41,619 nucleotides of DNA, taken from positions 1 to 41,619 of IMG/VR virus record IMGVR_UViG_3300030419_004698, one strand, 5' to 3'. A model generated the notes under the pieces. That model had not been told where the DNA came from. It worked only from the letters and a program-made list of their open reading frames with translations, and ran no database searches. Positions 6,010 to 39,746 of the stretch are shown here, one piece after another. The stretch's first letter is position 1. Each line of letters begins with the position of its first letter. This stretch comes from a virus. Made by a program: the position numbers and the translations under genes.

Positions 6010-6033
6010 GGTGTACATTTTGGTGTACATTTT
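6010..6033. repeat. Tandem 12-bp repeat, probable integrase arm sites
   Basis: GGTGTACATTTT occurs twice without a gap, the second copy overlapping the integrase stop codon (6032-6034 on the minus strand). The same TGTACA core recurs across the tRNA fragment at 5760-5793. Arm-type sites bound by the N-terminal domain of lambda-type integrases are short direct repeats at such positions. Confidence 0.65.
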
Positions 6034-7354
6034 ACGCTCCGCGTGCATTCCTCAAGTCAAATTCACCCATCGCTGTATCCATTTTACTTGCAACACTCGC
6101 AACTTTTATATCTCTCACGTTGTCATATATTAACATTGTAGTTGATAGCTCTGTATGACCAAGCATTCTCATGATTACTTTCGGATCAACACCCTGTTCT
6201 GCTAACAGCGAAGTATATGCGTGTCGTAACTTCCTTAAAGTCATATCAGGGCGACCCATAGAGGAGCAAATAGTGCGGACAGTATCTGCAACCTTGTCGG
6301 GGTTTAGAAACTCTCCAATTTCGTTAGCAAAGACAAGTGATTCTTCAGTCCAGTTGTACTCGGCATTATCTTTTTGATATTGACGATGGTGGTCAAGAAA
6401 TATTTTTAATTTCGGAGATATAGCAGACCGTTCTCCGACACTTCCCTCGGTCTTTCCCCACGGTCTGATGTAATGTCCGACTCCCCTTTCCTTTGAGCGG
6501 ACGACAGTCTGATTAACTGAGACTATCTGTTGACCGTGCTTTTCTTTAATGTCCGACCATCTCAACCCCAAAACTTCACTGCGACGCAGACCGGTATATA
6601 TGGAAGTAATGATAGGACCTGCATGACGATTTGATCCAAGTAGTTTGATCAATTCCCTTAAATCAGAAGCGGATATTTCTTTTTCATTTCCAGGTCTGGG
6701 AACTTTCGGTGGTCTGATTTTATTTTGGCCATGCTGGTCAGCAAAAAGATGATACTTCAATATTCCCTGTTCAACACCGTACTCAATCGCTGCATGGTAA
6801 GAACGATAGTGATGCTTTACGGTTAATGGTTTCAGTCCATGACCACCTTCACTGACAGGCTTTTGCAACTCGGAAAAGAACGCCCCAAACATATGCTTGT
6901 TGTTTTCTAAATGGTGAAGAGTAGCAGCACCGAGTGGATGTGGATATTCCATAGTCATGTTGTCTTGATTTCTGACAGCTAGTTTTCTGATGTGTCCACG
7001 ATATCCAGAAGTCGTACTCCACTCAAGCAGTGAAACATAATTGTCATACCAGTAGTATAAAAATTCCCCAAAGGTCATCGTCGAATCACGCGGACTGATC
7101 TTCAGCTTTGCCTGCTCTTCAACTTCATCCTGTAATCTTTGACGTTCCCTTCTGGCACGTTCAATAAACTTACTATCCGCCTCGCGTTTACCGTCGATAT
7201 ACAGTCGCTTAATAGATATTGATCTCCCTTTGGTAATCCTGTTGCCGTACTCGTCTTTCCCCAATTCCAGATTCATTTTTATAGCGTCATCATGACGGTG
7301 ATAGGCAAGGTGCTTTGTAGCGTGGACCTTTTCTTTGAATGTCTGTTTTGCCAT
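6032..7354 (-). CDS. int: Tyrosine-family site-specific integrase (440 aa)
   Basis: ATG at 7354 with a strong SD (AAGGAGAGGACG). N-terminal arm-binding/linker part (residues 1-90), SAM-like core-binding domain (about 91-215) and C-terminal catalytic domain (about 225-415). Visible catalytic residues: Arg257 in TGLRRSEVLGLRW, a candidate beta-hairpin Lys at 301, Arg377 in LRKLRHAYTSLL, His400 in MLGHTELSTT and nucleophile Tyr410 in LIYDNV. The usual first His of the HxxR box is Arg374. It would recombine attP (just downstream) with a host tRNA-Trp gene. Ten bases separate it from the upstream regulator gene, so the two are co-transcribed. Confidence 0.93.
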   Translation of the reverse strand: MAKQTFKEKVHATKHLAYHRHDDAIKMNLELGKDEYGNRITKGRSISIKRLYIDGKREADSKFIERARRERQRLQDEVEEQAKLKISPRDSTMTFGEFLYYWYDNYVSLLEWSTTSGYRGHIRKLAVRNQDNMTMEYPHPLGAATLHHLENNKHMFGAFFSELQKPVSEGGHGLKPLTVKHHYRSYHAAIEYGVEQGILKYHLFADQHGQNKIRPPKVPRPGNEKEISASDLRELIKLLGSNRHAGPIITSIYTGLRRSEVLGLRWSDIKEKHGQQIVSVNQTVVRSKERGVGHYIRPWGKTEGSVGERSAISPKLKIFLDHHRQYQKDNAEYNWTEESLVFANEIGEFLNPDKVADTVRTICSSMGRPDMTLRKLRHAYTSLLAEQGVDPKVIMRMLGHTELSTTMLIYDNVRDIKVASVASKMDTAMGEFDLRNARGA

Positions 7355-10410: not shown

Positions 10411-10674
10411 ATGCAAAAGGAACTGTACTGCAATCCAAACGGATGCAATGAACATGACTTTAAGACAGCCAGCATCTGGTGTGCATACCAGGATCATTTA
10501 TCGCGTGAAGAACGGAAGATACAGGCAATGAATAAGATCGCTGAGTCTATGAATAAACCTATTGCATCAGCAGTCCAGACTCCTCAAGCAGATATTCCAC
10601 AGAGACAGACAAGACCCGCAAGGACAGTTGTGAATGGCACAAGAAGAACTTTTGGGGACGTTAGAGTACCCTGA
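10411..10674 (+). CDS. Small hypothetical protein (87 aa), Cys-containing
   Basis: ATG 10411 after ACGGAGACAACT. N-terminus holds CNPNGCNEHDFKTASIWC, possibly a metal knuckle; the C-terminus is Pro/Thr/Arg-rich and likely disordered (QRQTRPARTVV). Overlaps the ATPase gene by 41 bases in another frame. Function unknown. Confidence 0.55.
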   Translation: MQKELYCNPNGCNEHDFKTASIWCAYQDHLSREERKIQAMNKIAESMNKPIASAVQTPQADIPQRQTRPARTVVNGTRRTFGDVRVP

Positions 10675-11755
10675 ATTAGATCCAGTTTTAAATACATACG
10701 GCGAAGTAGAAGCACACAGAACAGTATTCGATGGACTCAATTCCACAATTAGTTTTGTCGGATACGATCTAGAACAGAAACCCACCGGACTTCATGGAAT
10801 CATTGAAGTCTATCTCGATTCCACACAGGTCGCGTGGGACAACATCAACTACACCAAGTCAACCCAGCGCAAGGCCGTTGCCGGTGACGCTTACAGCGAT
10901 GGCGACCTCGATTTCGTTGCCAAGTTTTATCCCAGAAAACATATGCACAAGGACCTTGCTGTCTTTGCAAAGAAGGCATATCCAATTTATCTCGGCAAGG
11001 TCGAAGTCGATATGGTTCACGGCGATCCAATGCTTGAGATCAGGGAATATATAAAGGGACTTATTCCTATGGGAACCGGAGTCATTGTTAACTCAAGACC
11101 TGGCATGGGAAAGAGCTGGATTGTAATGCTCATAGCAGTCACCGTCGATTCGGGTAGCACAACTCTATGGAATGCAGAGCAGGGGAATGTCCTTTATATA
11201 AACCTCGAGAGATCCGAGTCATCAATGAGGCGGCGTCTCGGCGGAGTCAACACTTCACTCGGCCTCGATTACAACAGGCCACTCAGGTTCCTTAACGTCC
11301 GCGGAAGATCACTGGTGGATATCAGGGACTCGGTTAAGAAGATTGTCGAGAAAGAGGATATTAAATTAATTGTCGTCGATTCAATTTCCCGAGCCGGTAT
11401 GGGTTCTCTCATAGAAGATAACGTAGCAATGAAGATCACTGATCTTCTAAACAATCTCGTTGAGGAAACCGATAGAGCATGGCTTGGAATTGCACACCGC
11501 GGTCATACAAACCAGAACGTATTCGGGTCTATACACTTCATCGCTGCTGCCGATGTCGTAGTCAAACTTGAATCAGCCCGTAACCTCAGTAAAGAACTCG
11601 GCATAAAGCTGACGGTGGAAAAGCAGAACGATCTTCCACCATCGATGCCAACACTGGTCGGCCTTTCTTTTGACTCTATGGGAATCAACAACGTCTGGCG
11701 CCCATACGAATACGAATTTCCTGACCTCATAGAAGAAGACGAATCAACAAAGTAG
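10634..11755 (+). CDS. RecA/RepA-like replicative ATPase (AAA_25 type, 373 aa)
   Basis: ATG 10634 with AAGGACAGTTGTGA upstream. Walker A is NSRPGMGKSW (about residues 153-162); Walker B is IKLIVVDSISRAG (about 243-255). These, with GNVLYINLERSE between them, fit the RecA-fold hexameric family including RepA-like helicases and phage replication ATPases. A beta-rich 140-residue N-terminal domain (IEVYLDSTQVAWDNI) may bind DNA or a loader. It is the only recognisable replication motor in the genome; no polymerase or primase is seen, so replication relies on host enzymes. Confidence 0.8.
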   Translation: MAQEELLGTLEYPELDPVLNTYGEVEAHRTVFDGLNSTISFVGYDLEQKPTGLHGIIEVYLDSTQVAWDNINYTKSTQRKAVAGDAYSDGDLDFVAKFYPRKHMHKDLAVFAKKAYPIYLGKVEVDMVHGDPMLEIREYIKGLIPMGTGVIVNSRPGMGKSWIVMLIAVTVDSGSTTLWNAEQGNVLYINLERSESSMRRRLGGVNTSLGLDYNRPLRFLNVRGRSLVDIRDSVKKIVEKEDIKLIVVDSISRAGMGSLIEDNVAMKITDLLNNLVEETDRAWLGIAHRGHTNQNVFGSIHFIAAADVVVKLESARNLSKELGIKLTVEKQNDLPPSMPTLVGLSFDSMGINNVWRPYEYEFPDLIEEDESTK

Positions 11756-11757
11756 GT

Positions 11758-12162
11758 ATGAGAGATGCACCAAACATATGTGACAAATGCCACAGTACAT
11801 TTATCGAATCTGTCGATGAGGCAGAATTCCGATGCGCCCTTTGTGGCAGGCGGTTTTACCTGCCTCTCGGAAGGATTGAGAAAAGGCCATTTAAATTGCA
11901 GATCCGCTACAAGGGATTCGCAATCAAAGGAAAGAGAACACCTCTTACAGTCGGCATCGACGACAACGATAACGAGCCGAACAGGGTTATGAAATACCAG
12001 GTCTATTGCCCCGAGTGTTTTGAGATGACAAAGCAGGGGCCAAGAACAAGAAGGGACGATAAAAATGGATTCCACTACGACATCAGAATGAAGTGCGACA
12101 ACCACCACATTACTACTCTAATGGAATCAAGTCACAACGGAGATTTATTTGGCTGGAGATAA
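11758..12162 (+). CDS. Zinc-ribbon protein (134 aa)
   Basis: ATG 11758, two bases after the ATPase stop. Two CxxC pairs close together (ICDKCHSTF and CALCGRRF) form a zinc ribbon in residues 8-33; a second set (YCPECFEMT ... MKCDNHH) lies at the C-terminal end. The middle is basic and beta-rich. Zinc ribbons of this sort bind nucleic acid or proteins; position suggests a replication or transcription accessory factor. Confidence 0.65.
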   Translation: MRDAPNICDKCHSTFIESVDEAEFRCALCGRRFYLPLGRIEKRPFKLQIRYKGFAIKGKRTPLTVGIDDNDNEPNRVMKYQVYCPECFEMTKQGPRTRRDDKNGFHYDIRMKCDNHHITTLMESSHNGDLFGWR

Positions 12163-12190: not shown

Positions 12191-12484
12191 ATGCTTTCCT
12201 ACAACAGCATGAAGGAAAAGGAATTTCAGTCGATGGTTGAACAAATTGCGGAGCTGCGTGGCTGGACCTTTTACCACACCCGTAACAGCATAGGATCTCA
12301 AAAAGGATTTCCTGATCTTGTAATGCTCAGAGGCGAAAGAGAAGTAGTAGCTGAACTCAAGTCACAAAAAGGGAAGATAAGCGAAGAACAGAAAGACTGG
12401 CTGGAAAAATATAAATTGGTAGGAGCTGAGGTCTTCCTCTGGAGACCATCGGATATAAGAGAGATCGAGGAGATTCTGAGCTAG
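12191..12484 (+). CDS. VRR-NUC family nuclease / Holliday-junction-resolvase-like (97 aa)
   Basis: I use ATG 12191 (MLSYNSMKEKEFQSMVEQIAE); a TTG at 12149 would add 14 residues inside the preceding gene. The PD-(D/E)xK core is visible: GFPDLVMLR (about residues 52-60), then VVAELKSQKGKISEEQKDWL, with the Asp, the Glu-x-Lys pair and the conserved Gln/Trp-Leu helix of VRR-NUC domains. About 100 residues is normal for standalone VRR-NUC proteins. Expected to cut branched or single-strand/duplex junction DNA during replication. Confidence 0.8.
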   Translation: MLSYNSMKEKEFQSMVEQIAELRGWTFYHTRNSIGSQKGFPDLVMLRGEREVVAELKSQKGKISEEQKDWLEKYKLVGAEVFLWRPSDIREIEEILS

Positions 12485-12493
12485 GGAAATTAA

Positions 12494-13273
12494 ATGTGGA
12501 TACACGTACCTACAACGCTATTAGTCTCTGCTCAGGATACGACGGAATCCAGCTTGGACTCCGAGAGGTTATCCATGTTAGAACAGTCTGCTACGTGGAA
12601 AACGAAGTATCTGTCGCCCGAATCCTGGCAGCGCGTATGGAAGAGGGATACCTCGATAAGGCGCCTGTCTGGTCTGACGTCAAAGACTTCGACCCTGAAC
12701 CGTGGTGTGGAAAAGTGGATATCCTCTTTGGAGGATTTCCCTGTCAGCCCTTTTCAGTGGCAGGAGAAAAGCTCGGAGAAGATGACCCGAGAAATCTCTG
12801 GCCAGATACAGCCAGACTTATACGGGGACTTGGGGTATCAGTCGTCTTTCTGGAAAATGTCAGCGGACCCGAGTTCCTCAGATACTACTACTCTCGAATA
12901 CGACCTGAACTGGTCGAGATGGATTTTAAAGTTGAGGAGGGATTATTCTCGGCGGCTGAAGTCGGCGCCTCGCACCGAAGGCGTCGAACCTTCATACTGG
13001 CCCACTCCAATGCACAGAGACTACAAGGGGATGGATGGCCCTGGAAAAAAGAACGCCCTGAAGGACCCCCGACTGTACCTCTCTATCCCCCAGGTCCCAA
13101 GGACAAACAGGGATGGACACAACTGCTCTCGGTTCTGCCAGAGGCTCAACCCAGTTGGTGCCGAACACTTGATGGGCCTGCCCCTGAAATGGACATACGC
13201 CTCAGAGCCATTGGCAACGGAGTCGTTCCGGCAGTGGCGGCTAGGGCTTTTAGGATACTTGCGGAGAAATTGA
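12494..13273 (+). CDS. Overprinted +1-frame ORF inside the cytosine methyltransferase gene (259 aa)
   Basis: A complete ORF with its own ATG at 12494, reading +1 relative to the methyltransferase, whose GTG (12496) overlaps it in ATGTG. It stops 5 bases before the methyltransferase does. Recognisable stretches: GVEKWISSLEDFPVSP (about 71-86), PRTEGVEPSYWPTPMHRDYK (about 159-178), LNPVGAEHLMGLPLKWT (about 218-234) and ATESFRQW (about 241-248). These resemble, from memory, phage proteins with WPTP...EWLMGxPxGWT motifs that are annotated as hypothetical or methyltransferase-associated. Those motifs sit over methyltransferase motifs VIII and X. It may be a true second gene or a frame kept open by the methyltransferase sequence. 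Confidence 0.5.
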   Translation: MWIHVPTTLLVSAQDTTESSLDSERLSMLEQSATWKTKYLSPESWQRVWKRDTSIRRLSGLTSKTSTLNRGVEKWISSLEDFPVSPFQWQEKSSEKMTREISGQIQPDLYGDLGYQSSFWKMSADPSSSDTTTLEYDLNWSRWILKLRRDYSRRLKSAPRTEGVEPSYWPTPMHRDYKGMDGPGKKNALKDPRLYLSIPQVPRTNRDGHNCSRFCQRLNPVGAEHLMGLPLKWTYASEPLATESFRQWRLGLLGYLRRN

Positions 13274-13278
13274 AATGA
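12496..13278 (+). CDS. C5-cytosine DNA methyltransferase (Dcm-like, 260 aa)
   Basis: GTG start at 12496, sharing SD AGGG with an ATG two bases earlier. Motifs in order: I SLCSGYDGIQLGLR (about 10-23), IV GGFPCQPFSVAG with catalytic Cys83, VI VVFLENV (116-122), VIII GASHRRRRTFILA (157-169), and X AIGNGVVPAVAARAF (238-252). The target-recognition segment between VIII and IX/X is short (about 55 residues), so specificity is probably for a small site. Likely protects phage DNA from host restriction or marks it for regulation. No cognate restriction enzyme is seen. The ATGA overlap couples it to the next gene. Confidence 0.9.
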   Translation: MDTRTYNAISLCSGYDGIQLGLREVIHVRTVCYVENEVSVARILAARMEEGYLDKAPVWSDVKDFDPEPWCGKVDILFGGFPCQPFSVAGEKLGEDDPRNLWPDTARLIRGLGVSVVFLENVSGPEFLRYYYSRIRPELVEMDFKVEEGLFSAAEVGASHRRRRTFILAHSNAQRLQGDGWPWKKERPEGPPTVPLYPPGPKDKQGWTQLLSVLPEAQPSWCRTLDGPAPEMDIRLRAIGNGVVPAVAARAFRILAEKLK

Positions 13279-13484
13279 CAGATAAATGCGTGCATCACTA
13301 CATCCTCGAGGAACCTGGTGGAGTTAACTCTCTCGGGGTCTGCAAGAAATGCGGTGCGAAAAAGATTCACTCAAATGAACTCGGCAAAAAAGTCGTCGCA
13401 AGAGAGACTTCTGCTGGCTTCGTCCAAAGGGTCGTGGAATTTTCGTTGAATAACAGGGGAACGCTAAAGGAGAAGGATGATTAG
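13275..13484 (+). CDS. Small zinc-finger-like protein (69 aa)
   Basis: ATG 13275 overlaps the methyltransferase stop. The N-terminal CVHHYILEEPGGVNSLGVCKKCG has CxxH and CxxC pairs, a small zinc knuckle seen in many phage proteins of unknown role. The C-terminus is basic. It overlaps the next gene by 8 bases. Confidence 0.65.
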   Translation: MTDKCVHHYILEEPGGVNSLGVCKKCGAKKIHSNELGKKVVARETSAGFVQRVVEFSLNNRGTLKEKDD

Positions 13485-38237: not shown

Positions 38238-39746
38238 CTATGCAAACGCCGGTAGGCGGATAATTTTTCCGTGGCTCTGTATGCCCCTGTTCTTTTTACA
38301 CATCAGAGCGATGCCGAGTGCCATGACGTAATCGTCGTGAGCGCCGCCCATCGCCTGCGGTTTTTCGCCGGGAGCTGCAATGATCGTTGAGAATTCATCG
38401 AGTCCCTGTTTGTTGGGAATCGTTAAGTGTCCGTCATTGAAAGTCTGGCGAAGTTCGTCAAAAAGGTTCTGGCGGCTCATCCTGTCGGTTCGCCACCCGT
38501 GTTCGCGCCGTGCAGTCTTTCCCCGACCGACGGTCCGTCTGTAGAGTTTCGGATAGTTTTCGTCACGCGCTACCGTAAGAACGGTATCCGAAAAGTTATT
38601 TTCAATTGCCCAGTCGGGGTTGTCATATACCTCGAGCAGATTCATTGATGCCACCGAAAAGTCCTCGGGGGCAAGTGCATTTGTCACAAGGTCAGCAACA
38701 ACATACCCCGAGTTAACATCGAGAATTACGGTCACCGAGTAGTCAAGGCCCACACCGGAGGCAACGTCAGTGCCTGCAACGTACCTTCTTCCGACCCGTG
38801 GCTCCTGGTATATATTAGCGGGTCCCACCTGCCTGATCGGCGCCTTACATTCCTCTGCCATTCCGATAATCATGTCTCTGTCAAAGATGCTTTGAGCTTT
38901 AGGTGGTGCGAGTGCTTCTGTTTCCTCGCCGGGATACTCCTGCTCCATGTACTGTTCGGGACTCATTCCCTCAAGGTCGAGTACCGGAACCGAATCCATC
39001 GTCCTCTCGTACCACTTTTCATCTCTTCCGGGTCTTGCGTGCCACGGAACGAAGAGGGTTTTCCACCCGTTGTCGGGAGCTGCGCGGTAGAGTTCCTTAA
39101 ACAGCGAACCCATCTCTCTTTTATTTGACGTTGATCCCATGATCATCTGGCCACCGCCGTCAATCGTGGGCTTTACTGCCGTGTAATTCTGTGCGTGGTA
39201 CTCATGAAAGTCCGCCTCGTCCTGTATAACGACCGATGCCGTCTCTGATCTTCCCGCATCTTCGGTCGAAGGAAGGGCTAACACCTTTGAATCACGCTCT
39301 GGTATACCTATCTCACTCCTTGAATCGGGGGATAGCGGAGCCTGCCAGTCCTCGGGCAGGTTCTTAAGTATGAAGCGTACTTTGTCAAGAAGTGAGAAGG
39401 CCTCAGTCTGTCCCTTTGAAATCATCAGGACGTTCGTCCCGTGATTAAACGTAAGAAGCCACGCCGCATACGCAGCACACGTCCATGAAAAACCAAGCTG
39501 CCTTGCCTTTAATACCGAAACAAGACGGTTATCAACTATCGCATTCGCAAGATCAACGATGTAATCCCACTTCTGAAAAGGAGCGGCACCACCGGATATA
39601 CCCGAATGTATCTGCGCCCTTTCGAGGATCTTCACATGATCAAGGAAATCAGGTTCCTCCCCAGACGAAATGAAATTTCTTCGGGCGAATTCCTTTTTAA
39701 TTCTCCGAACTGCTTCCTTTCTGTGAGATTCCGGTATAGCAACCAT
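38238..39746 (-). CDS. terL: Terminase large subunit (502 aa)
   Basis: ATG 39746 with AAAGGTAGATTA. N-terminal ATPase: deviant Walker A KARQLGFSWT (about residues 79-88), Walker B VVIQDEADFHEY (about 171-182) and coupling motif GSTSNKREMG (about 203-212). C-terminal RNase H-like nuclease: YVAGTDVASGVGLDYSVTVI (first Asp), IENNFSDTVL and the HDDYVMALGIAL helix with acidic residues. It packages DNA into the procapsid through the portal. The small subunit lies 1 kb upstream rather than next to it. Confidence 0.93.
   Translation of the reverse strand: MVAIPESHRKEAVRRIKKEFARRNFISSGEEPDFLDHVKILERAQIHSGISGGAAPFQKWDYIVDLANAIVDNRLVSVLKARQLGFSWTCAAYAAWLLTFNHGTNVLMISKGQTEAFSLLDKVRFILKNLPEDWQAPLSPDSRSEIGIPERDSKVLALPSTEDAGRSETASVVIQDEADFHEYHAQNYTAVKPTIDGGGQMIMGSTSNKREMGSLFKELYRAAPDNGWKTLFVPWHARPGRDEKWYERTMDSVPVLDLEGMSPEQYMEQEYPGEETEALAPPKAQSIFDRDMIIGMAEECKAPIRQVGPANIYQEPRVGRRYVAGTDVASGVGLDYSVTVILDVNSGYVVADLVTNALAPEDFSVASMNLLEVYDNPDWAIENNFSDTVLTVARDENYPKLYRRTVGRGKTARREHGWRTDRMSRQNLFDELRQTFNDGHLTIPNKQGLDEFSTIIAAPGEKPQAMGGAHDDYVMALGIALMCKKNRGIQSHGKIIRLPAFA

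Follow-up and report, generated by a model that had tools for sequence, protein, structure and literature searches.

A phage C5-cytosine methyltransferase locus predicted to encode two subunits in two overlapping reading frames

The stretch of DNA analysed here (the window; 41,619 nucleotides, IMG/VR record IMGVR_UViG_3300030419_004698) contains a locus which we interpret, with a probability of about 0.83, as a single C5-cytosine methyltransferase made as two polypeptides from two reading frames, an enzyme of the M.EcoHK31I type in which the second subunit, beta, is encoded wholly out of frame. Comparison with relatives shows, at the sequence level, two co-selected frames with coupled starts, frame 0 (alpha) holding methyltransferase motifs I-VIII and X, and the +1 frame (beta) holding motif IX together with a region of WPTP cassettes. 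From this arrangement we infer that both frames are translated, that the products form a heterodimer and that the DNA target is read by the cassettes; beta is most likely the target-recognising part of the enzyme. The integrase (6032-7354, minus strand) and the terminase large subunit (38238-39746, minus strand) indicate that the record belongs to a temperate tailed phage.

Both genes lie on the plus strand, alpha (12496..13278, 260 amino acids, PF00145) starting from the GTG at 12496-12498 and the putative recognition-type subunit beta (12494..13273, 259 amino acids, distinguished by its match to PHROG 1008 and by stop avoidance) from the ATG at 12494-12496; the coordinates of the two ORFs, including the 259 codons of the second, were already exact in the initial annotation. 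The genes are co-extensive over 259 of 260 codons and their start codons, two bases apart, overlap as ATGTG. Neither start can be shifted upstream, because each is the first start codon past the previous in-frame stop, and the Shine-Dalgarno-like sequence AGGGA (12483..12487, plus strand) precedes both, by 6 nt in the case of the beta ATG and 8 nt in that of the alpha GTG, such that the proposed overlapping starts with one common ribosome site are upheld. This AGGGA overlaps the stop codon of the VRR-NUC gene upstream. At the other end of the locus a 69-aa ORF (13275-13484) begins within the region of the alpha stop codon, the ATGA overlap suggesting coupled translation. Elsewhere in the window an antisense ORF of 201 codons (11503-12108, minus strand) lies over 10634-11755 and 11758-12162.

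The coupling of the starts is widespread among relatives. In 194 distinct loci of a first class (class A) the alpha start lies predominantly at +2 nt (96 loci), -4 nt (64) or +5 nt (17) relative to the beta start, the two being at most 5 nt apart in 177 (91%). In a second class (class B), found in Bacillota, Bacteroidota, actinobacteria and many phages, beta begins within alpha just 5' of motif IV, and in many Clostridia AAAGGAGG precedes its ATG or TTG. Internal Shine-Dalgarno sequences occur in class B 20 times against 13.6 expected when the encoded amino acids are allowed for, a modest excess, which we take as supporting rather than decisive.

Conservation of the predicted +1 gene extends to hundreds of relatives, in phages and in bacteria of several phyla. 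Three viral contigs encode +1 products 58-62% identical to that of the window over residues 1-179, and relatives have in common a start in MWIHVP and, C-terminally, RRLNPLFAEHLMGLPLGWT. Scans with the +1 alignments found 160 further viral loci, and in every one the +1 homologue is overlapped by a methyltransferase with the two frames offset alike. A search for a standalone beta among phages, plasmids and viral contigs found none: each of the 160 loci had an overlapping alpha, and the same held for the phage and plasmid matches examined. The initial annotation had feared precisely such an absence of homologues outside methylase overlaps, as the mark of an artefact; no such homologue was found in these sets, and we read this as the mark of a functional partner.

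Strong evidence that the +1 frame is maintained comes from its avoidance of stop codons. Synonymous-codon shuffling within the window gene gives an expectation of 5.4 stops in the +1 frame and a probability of 0.0004 that it should be open; in the third frame 15 stops occur for 12.75 expected. Tests on the family as a whole are much stronger than this single-gene result. In a sample of 79 distinct viral methyltransferase genes (about 170 codons each), collected by a scan with the methylase frame alone, there are 3 stops in the +1 frame versus 147 expected and 76 of the 79 genes are fully open, the third frame having 398 stops for 448 expected. The view that an accidental frame of 259 codons is unlikely is thus borne out for both gene and family, and the suggested search for +1 stops in relatives found the frame unbroken. 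Importantly, the genomes themselves provide a control. In 25 genomes (G001-G025) the complete set of PF00145 matches, amounting to 64 methylases scored from motif IV to motif VIII, fall in two sets, matching the profile either over its full length or only as far as about profile position 165. The 26 canonical methylases, which cover the whole profile, have 138 stops in the +1 frame against 134.2 expected and none is open, whereas the 38 of split type, whose match ends at motif VIII, have 1 against 29.9 expected and 37 are open; in the third frame of the latter the count (119) equals expectation (118.7). As the 25 genomes were picked for holding such a gene, the ratio of 38 in 64 is no census.

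The substitution pattern indicates that the selected frame differs between regions. Over motifs I-VIII (635 pairs) the largest fraction of changes falls at frame-0 third positions (0.49) and amino-acid identity is 0.77 in frame 0, 0.65 in the +1 frame and 0.60 in the third frame; by these measures frame 0 is the main selected frame, and the +1 frame a second and less constrained one. In the cassette region (748 module pairs) changes are distributed over the three +1 codon positions as.25,.21 and.55 (0.545 for the third), with identities of 0.74 for the +1 frame and 0.46 for both frame 0 and the third frame. Selection in this region acts in the +1 frame, which implies that between motif VIII and motif IX it is beta that holds the constrained sequence, the alpha reading there being spacer. 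Synonymous sites of the methylase, which the initial annotation had proposed to inspect, are restrained as well, moderately: fourfold-site divergence is 0.18 in the methylase and 0.32 in flanking non-overlapping genes, at 90-97% amino-acid identity. So moderate a restraint on third positions implies that the +1 protein evolves faster than alpha, and the argument consequently rests on stop avoidance and the codon-position tests.

The division of the motifs between the two frames accords with these patterns. Alpha matches PF00145 with E=2.3e-28 (100 bits, cut-off 22), but only through its residues 7-177 and profile positions 2-168 of 324, the match ending at motif VIII. It possesses motifs I, II, III, IV (PCQ), VI (ENV), VIII and X, motif IX being the sole canonical motif missing from frame 0. 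On the plus strand motif IV, GGFPCQPFS with the catalytic cysteine, occupies 12721..12765, motif VI (ENV) 12841..12861, motif VIII 12940..13002 and motif X (RLRAIGNGVVPAVAARAF) 13198..13251. The final residues of motif VIII overlap the first WPTP motif of beta, and that is the full extent of the overlap there: the initial annotation placed the +1 sequence SYWPTP (12992-13009) over motif VIII, of which it covers the last residues only, and was right in placing ATESFRQW over motif X.

Beta comprises an N-terminal half (12494..12997, plus strand; MWIHVP...RLSG...WISSL..., alignments A1 and A5) lying over alpha motifs I-VIII, a WPTP cassette region with a single cassette (12998..13111, plus strand; 0-9 cassettes in relatives) and a motif-IX-like sequence, RLNPVGAEHLMGLPLKWT (13142..13195, plus strand), assigned through the match of the relatives' profile to canonical motif IX. 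Its residues 73-184 match the PHROG 1008 profile (E=3.5e-14), so that the resemblance to a separately annotated phage family, suspected earlier from short motifs, proves correct. The same profile is matched by gp35 of the Streptomyces phage RemusLoopin (1.6e-44) and by the +1 ORF of Zerg (7e-48); PHROG 1008 is thus the family of beta, and its label, DNA methyltransferase, is silent on members lying out of frame inside another methyltransferase gene. No Pfam family matches beta at E<=1, nor does any in NCBIfam. AlphaFold models of beta alone, from the window (111-row alignment) and from locus L317 (70 rows), are of low confidence (pLDDT 63 and 62, pTM 0.27 and 0.23) and have no fold match in the PDB, for which reasons we claim no fold. 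For the N-terminal half neither a known homologue nor homology to methylases was found; this half is probably truly overprinted and may serve for contact with alpha.

That the +1 frame contains motif IX is indicated by the pattern RxLNPxFVExLMGxPxGWT, the counterpart of canonical motif IX, to which the window's 'RLNP..LMGLP..W', in a beta with one WPTP motif, also corresponds. Since phmmer with an actinobacterial methylase carrying motif IX in frame aligned only up to motif VIII, profile-profile comparison was used. Six betas that hold motif X as well (L263, L285, L317, L327, L343 and RemusLoopin gp35) match the canonical IX-X region with E=5e-6, LNPDWVEWLMGFP being aligned with the consensus of motif IX, and GNAVVP with motif X. 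When motif IX is compared by itself, E is 4e-4 over 20 columns and the probability 35%, a short match and weak by that probability. In these six systems motifs IX and X are both in the +1 frame and alpha ends past motif VIII, while in the actinobacterial loci L240, L243, L246 and L247 both are in frame 0 and the +1 frame keeps its PTP cassettes, ending before motif IX. The existence of three layouts suggests that a single ancestral order of motifs has exchanged frames repeatedly. Frame 0 terminates past motif VIII in L006, L007, L008 and L016, where the +1 frame is intact over 389-474 codons (452 from stop to stop in L016). The same loci have a separate ORF containing motif X and starting MADT (L006:3556-3951, L007:3379-3693, L008:3379-3693, L016:3428-3805), with GAGGAGG or GGAGG-like sites upstream, and are possibly methyltransferases of three polypeptides.

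In the multispecific phage C5 methyltransferases SPR, phi3T and rho11s, exchangeable modules are arrayed in tandem from motif VIII to motif IX, in frame and on one polypeptide. The present family likewise appears to have exchangeable modules between these motifs, one WPTP motif in the window and from none to nine in relatives, although here they lie in the +1 frame, as part of a second protein, with a presumed role in recognition. In a survey of 1066 modules from 351 betas (0-9 per beta), 425 pairs of modules are at least 60% identical despite N-terminal cores that are less than 42% identical or unalignable over 60 residues, and in 336 of the 425 the similar modules sit at different positions. 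Such likeness between modules of distant betas implies that they move as cassettes.

In M.EcoHK31I the small ORF lies within the large ORF in another frame. The window's second ORF similarly lies within the methylase gene in another frame, but its start is within two bases of that of the first and the two are co-extensive. According to PMC3404938, which cites Lee et al. 1995, the large subunit of M.EcoHK31I has motifs I-VIII and X, the small subunit has motif IX and both polypeptides are needed, the predicted recognition domain being placed in the large subunit; in M.AquI, another split C5 methyltransferase described there, alpha has motifs I-VIII and the small subunit IX-X. Compared by motif layout, the window agrees with M.EcoHK31I (YGGCCR) in having I-VIII and X in alpha and motif IX in beta, an agreement of moderate weight as the profile match is short, and differs in that its WPTP cassette is in beta. 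From M.AquI (CYCGRG) it differs in having motif X in alpha and in the complete overlap of the genes, the M.AquI layout being instead that of L263, L285, L317, L327, L343 and RemusLoopin gp34/gp35.

A first alternative is that the +1 frame is open through chance or composition, with the methyltransferase as the only product. In its favour, the third frame is stop-poor too in GC-rich relatives, and many single GC-rich genes have less than one expected +1 stop. Yet the family has 3 stops where 147 are expected, stops are not avoided in the canonical methylases of the 25 genomes, the coupled starts are forced, the cassettes are under selection in +1 codons and in L006, L007, L008 and L016 it is frame 0 that is broken and the +1 frame that is intact. 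Chance is refuted at the level of the family and we regard it as very improbable overall. Ribosomal frameshifting, yielding one full-length methyltransferase with motifs I-VIII from frame 0, the recognition region and motif IX from the +1 frame and motif X again from frame 0, would agree with the order of motifs in the DNA, which is that of the canonical enzyme divided between frames. This explanation, which we consider improbable though less remote than chance, requires two shifts of opposite sense per molecule and leaves unexplained both the openness and conservation of the +1 frame over motifs I-VIII and the dedicated starts.

That the +1 product is not a subunit but a separate overprinted protein with its own function, for example in anti-restriction or regulation of the methylase, is the least improbable of the alternatives and still unlikely. 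Beta has no Pfam match, and its N-terminal half overlaps the catalytic domain and is devoid of detected methylase homology, which favours this reading; on the other hand, beta has the motif IX missing in alpha, in relatives can hold motif X too and was accompanied by alpha at every locus examined. A homing endonuclease that sits out of frame as an insertion in the methylase gene has a precedent in the mycobacteriophage ShiLan, where an HNH endonuclease, a mobile insertion, is hidden out of frame in a methylase (PMC11855218). The window shares with ShiLan a phage methylase gene that conceals an out-of-frame protein, and departs from it in that the hidden protein would be a partner subunit. As the overlap spans the whole gene there is no insertion, and the hidden frame contains no HNH or other Pfam domain (E<=1), which contradicts an endonuclease of this type and leaves it a negligible likelihood.

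On the preferred reading of one enzyme in two polypeptides, ribosomes would load at one shared site and initiate at either the ATG or the GTG, providing both subunits in cis. Alpha would constitute the catalytic domain (I-VIII and X), beta would supply the recognition region with the WPTP cassette and the motif IX that alpha is without, and their pairing would generate an active sequence-specific enzyme, which probably protects or marks the phage DNA. The proposal in the initial annotation that the family arose by overprinting of methyltransferases can be retained for the N-terminal half of beta, which lies over motifs I-VIII. It does not fit the C-terminal half, which, given the match to motif IX and the cassettes selected in the +1 frame, looks like the recognition region of the methylase displaced out of frame; motif X is best seen as having stayed in the alpha frame or gone back to it.

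The two-polypeptide kind of enzyme is already known and the two-frame layout is described before for few enzymes only, while novelty appears to lie in the breadth of the family, in the start common to both genes and in the cassettes being out of frame. Our literature search for overlapping or nested methylase genes, which covered few subscription papers, found ShiLan only and no account of the overlap as a general feature; a search on split methylases led to M.AquI and M.EcoHK31I. Existing annotations are nevertheless instructive. In Paenibacillus phage Leyra nested genes in different frames (L423:741-1778 and 925-1629) are both annotated DNA methyltransferase, and in Acidovorax phage Alfacinha3 the deposited 'cytosine-specific methyltransferase' (L004:1501-2667) is the +1 partner, the true catalytic frame being unannotated.

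In bacteria and their phages it is rare, and a matter of dispute, for two conserved proteins to share a long overlap on one strand; this case has both a clean internal control, provided by the canonical methylases that the 25 genomes also contain, and a biochemical precedent. A PF00145 match that ends at about position 165 provides a simple marker for split C5 methyltransferases in any genome. We think it somewhat better than an even chance that the gene class is very common, that its specificity resides in a hidden +1 subunit of interchangeable cassettes over which the alpha reading is unconstrained spacer, that shuffling of +1 cassettes retargets the enzyme and that L006, L007, L008 and L016, which look tripartite, carry motif X on a third polypeptide with its own start. 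If the two-subunit reading is true, some 38 of the 64 C5 methylases in the comparison, from 25 genomes each chosen for such a gene, need a second and mostly unannotated protein. Attempts to clone or predict specificity with nothing but the methylase frame would in that case fail, and many entries that databases list as methyltransferase would be the partner protein. The locus would then offer a tractable case of a split gene and an overprinted extension evolving together.
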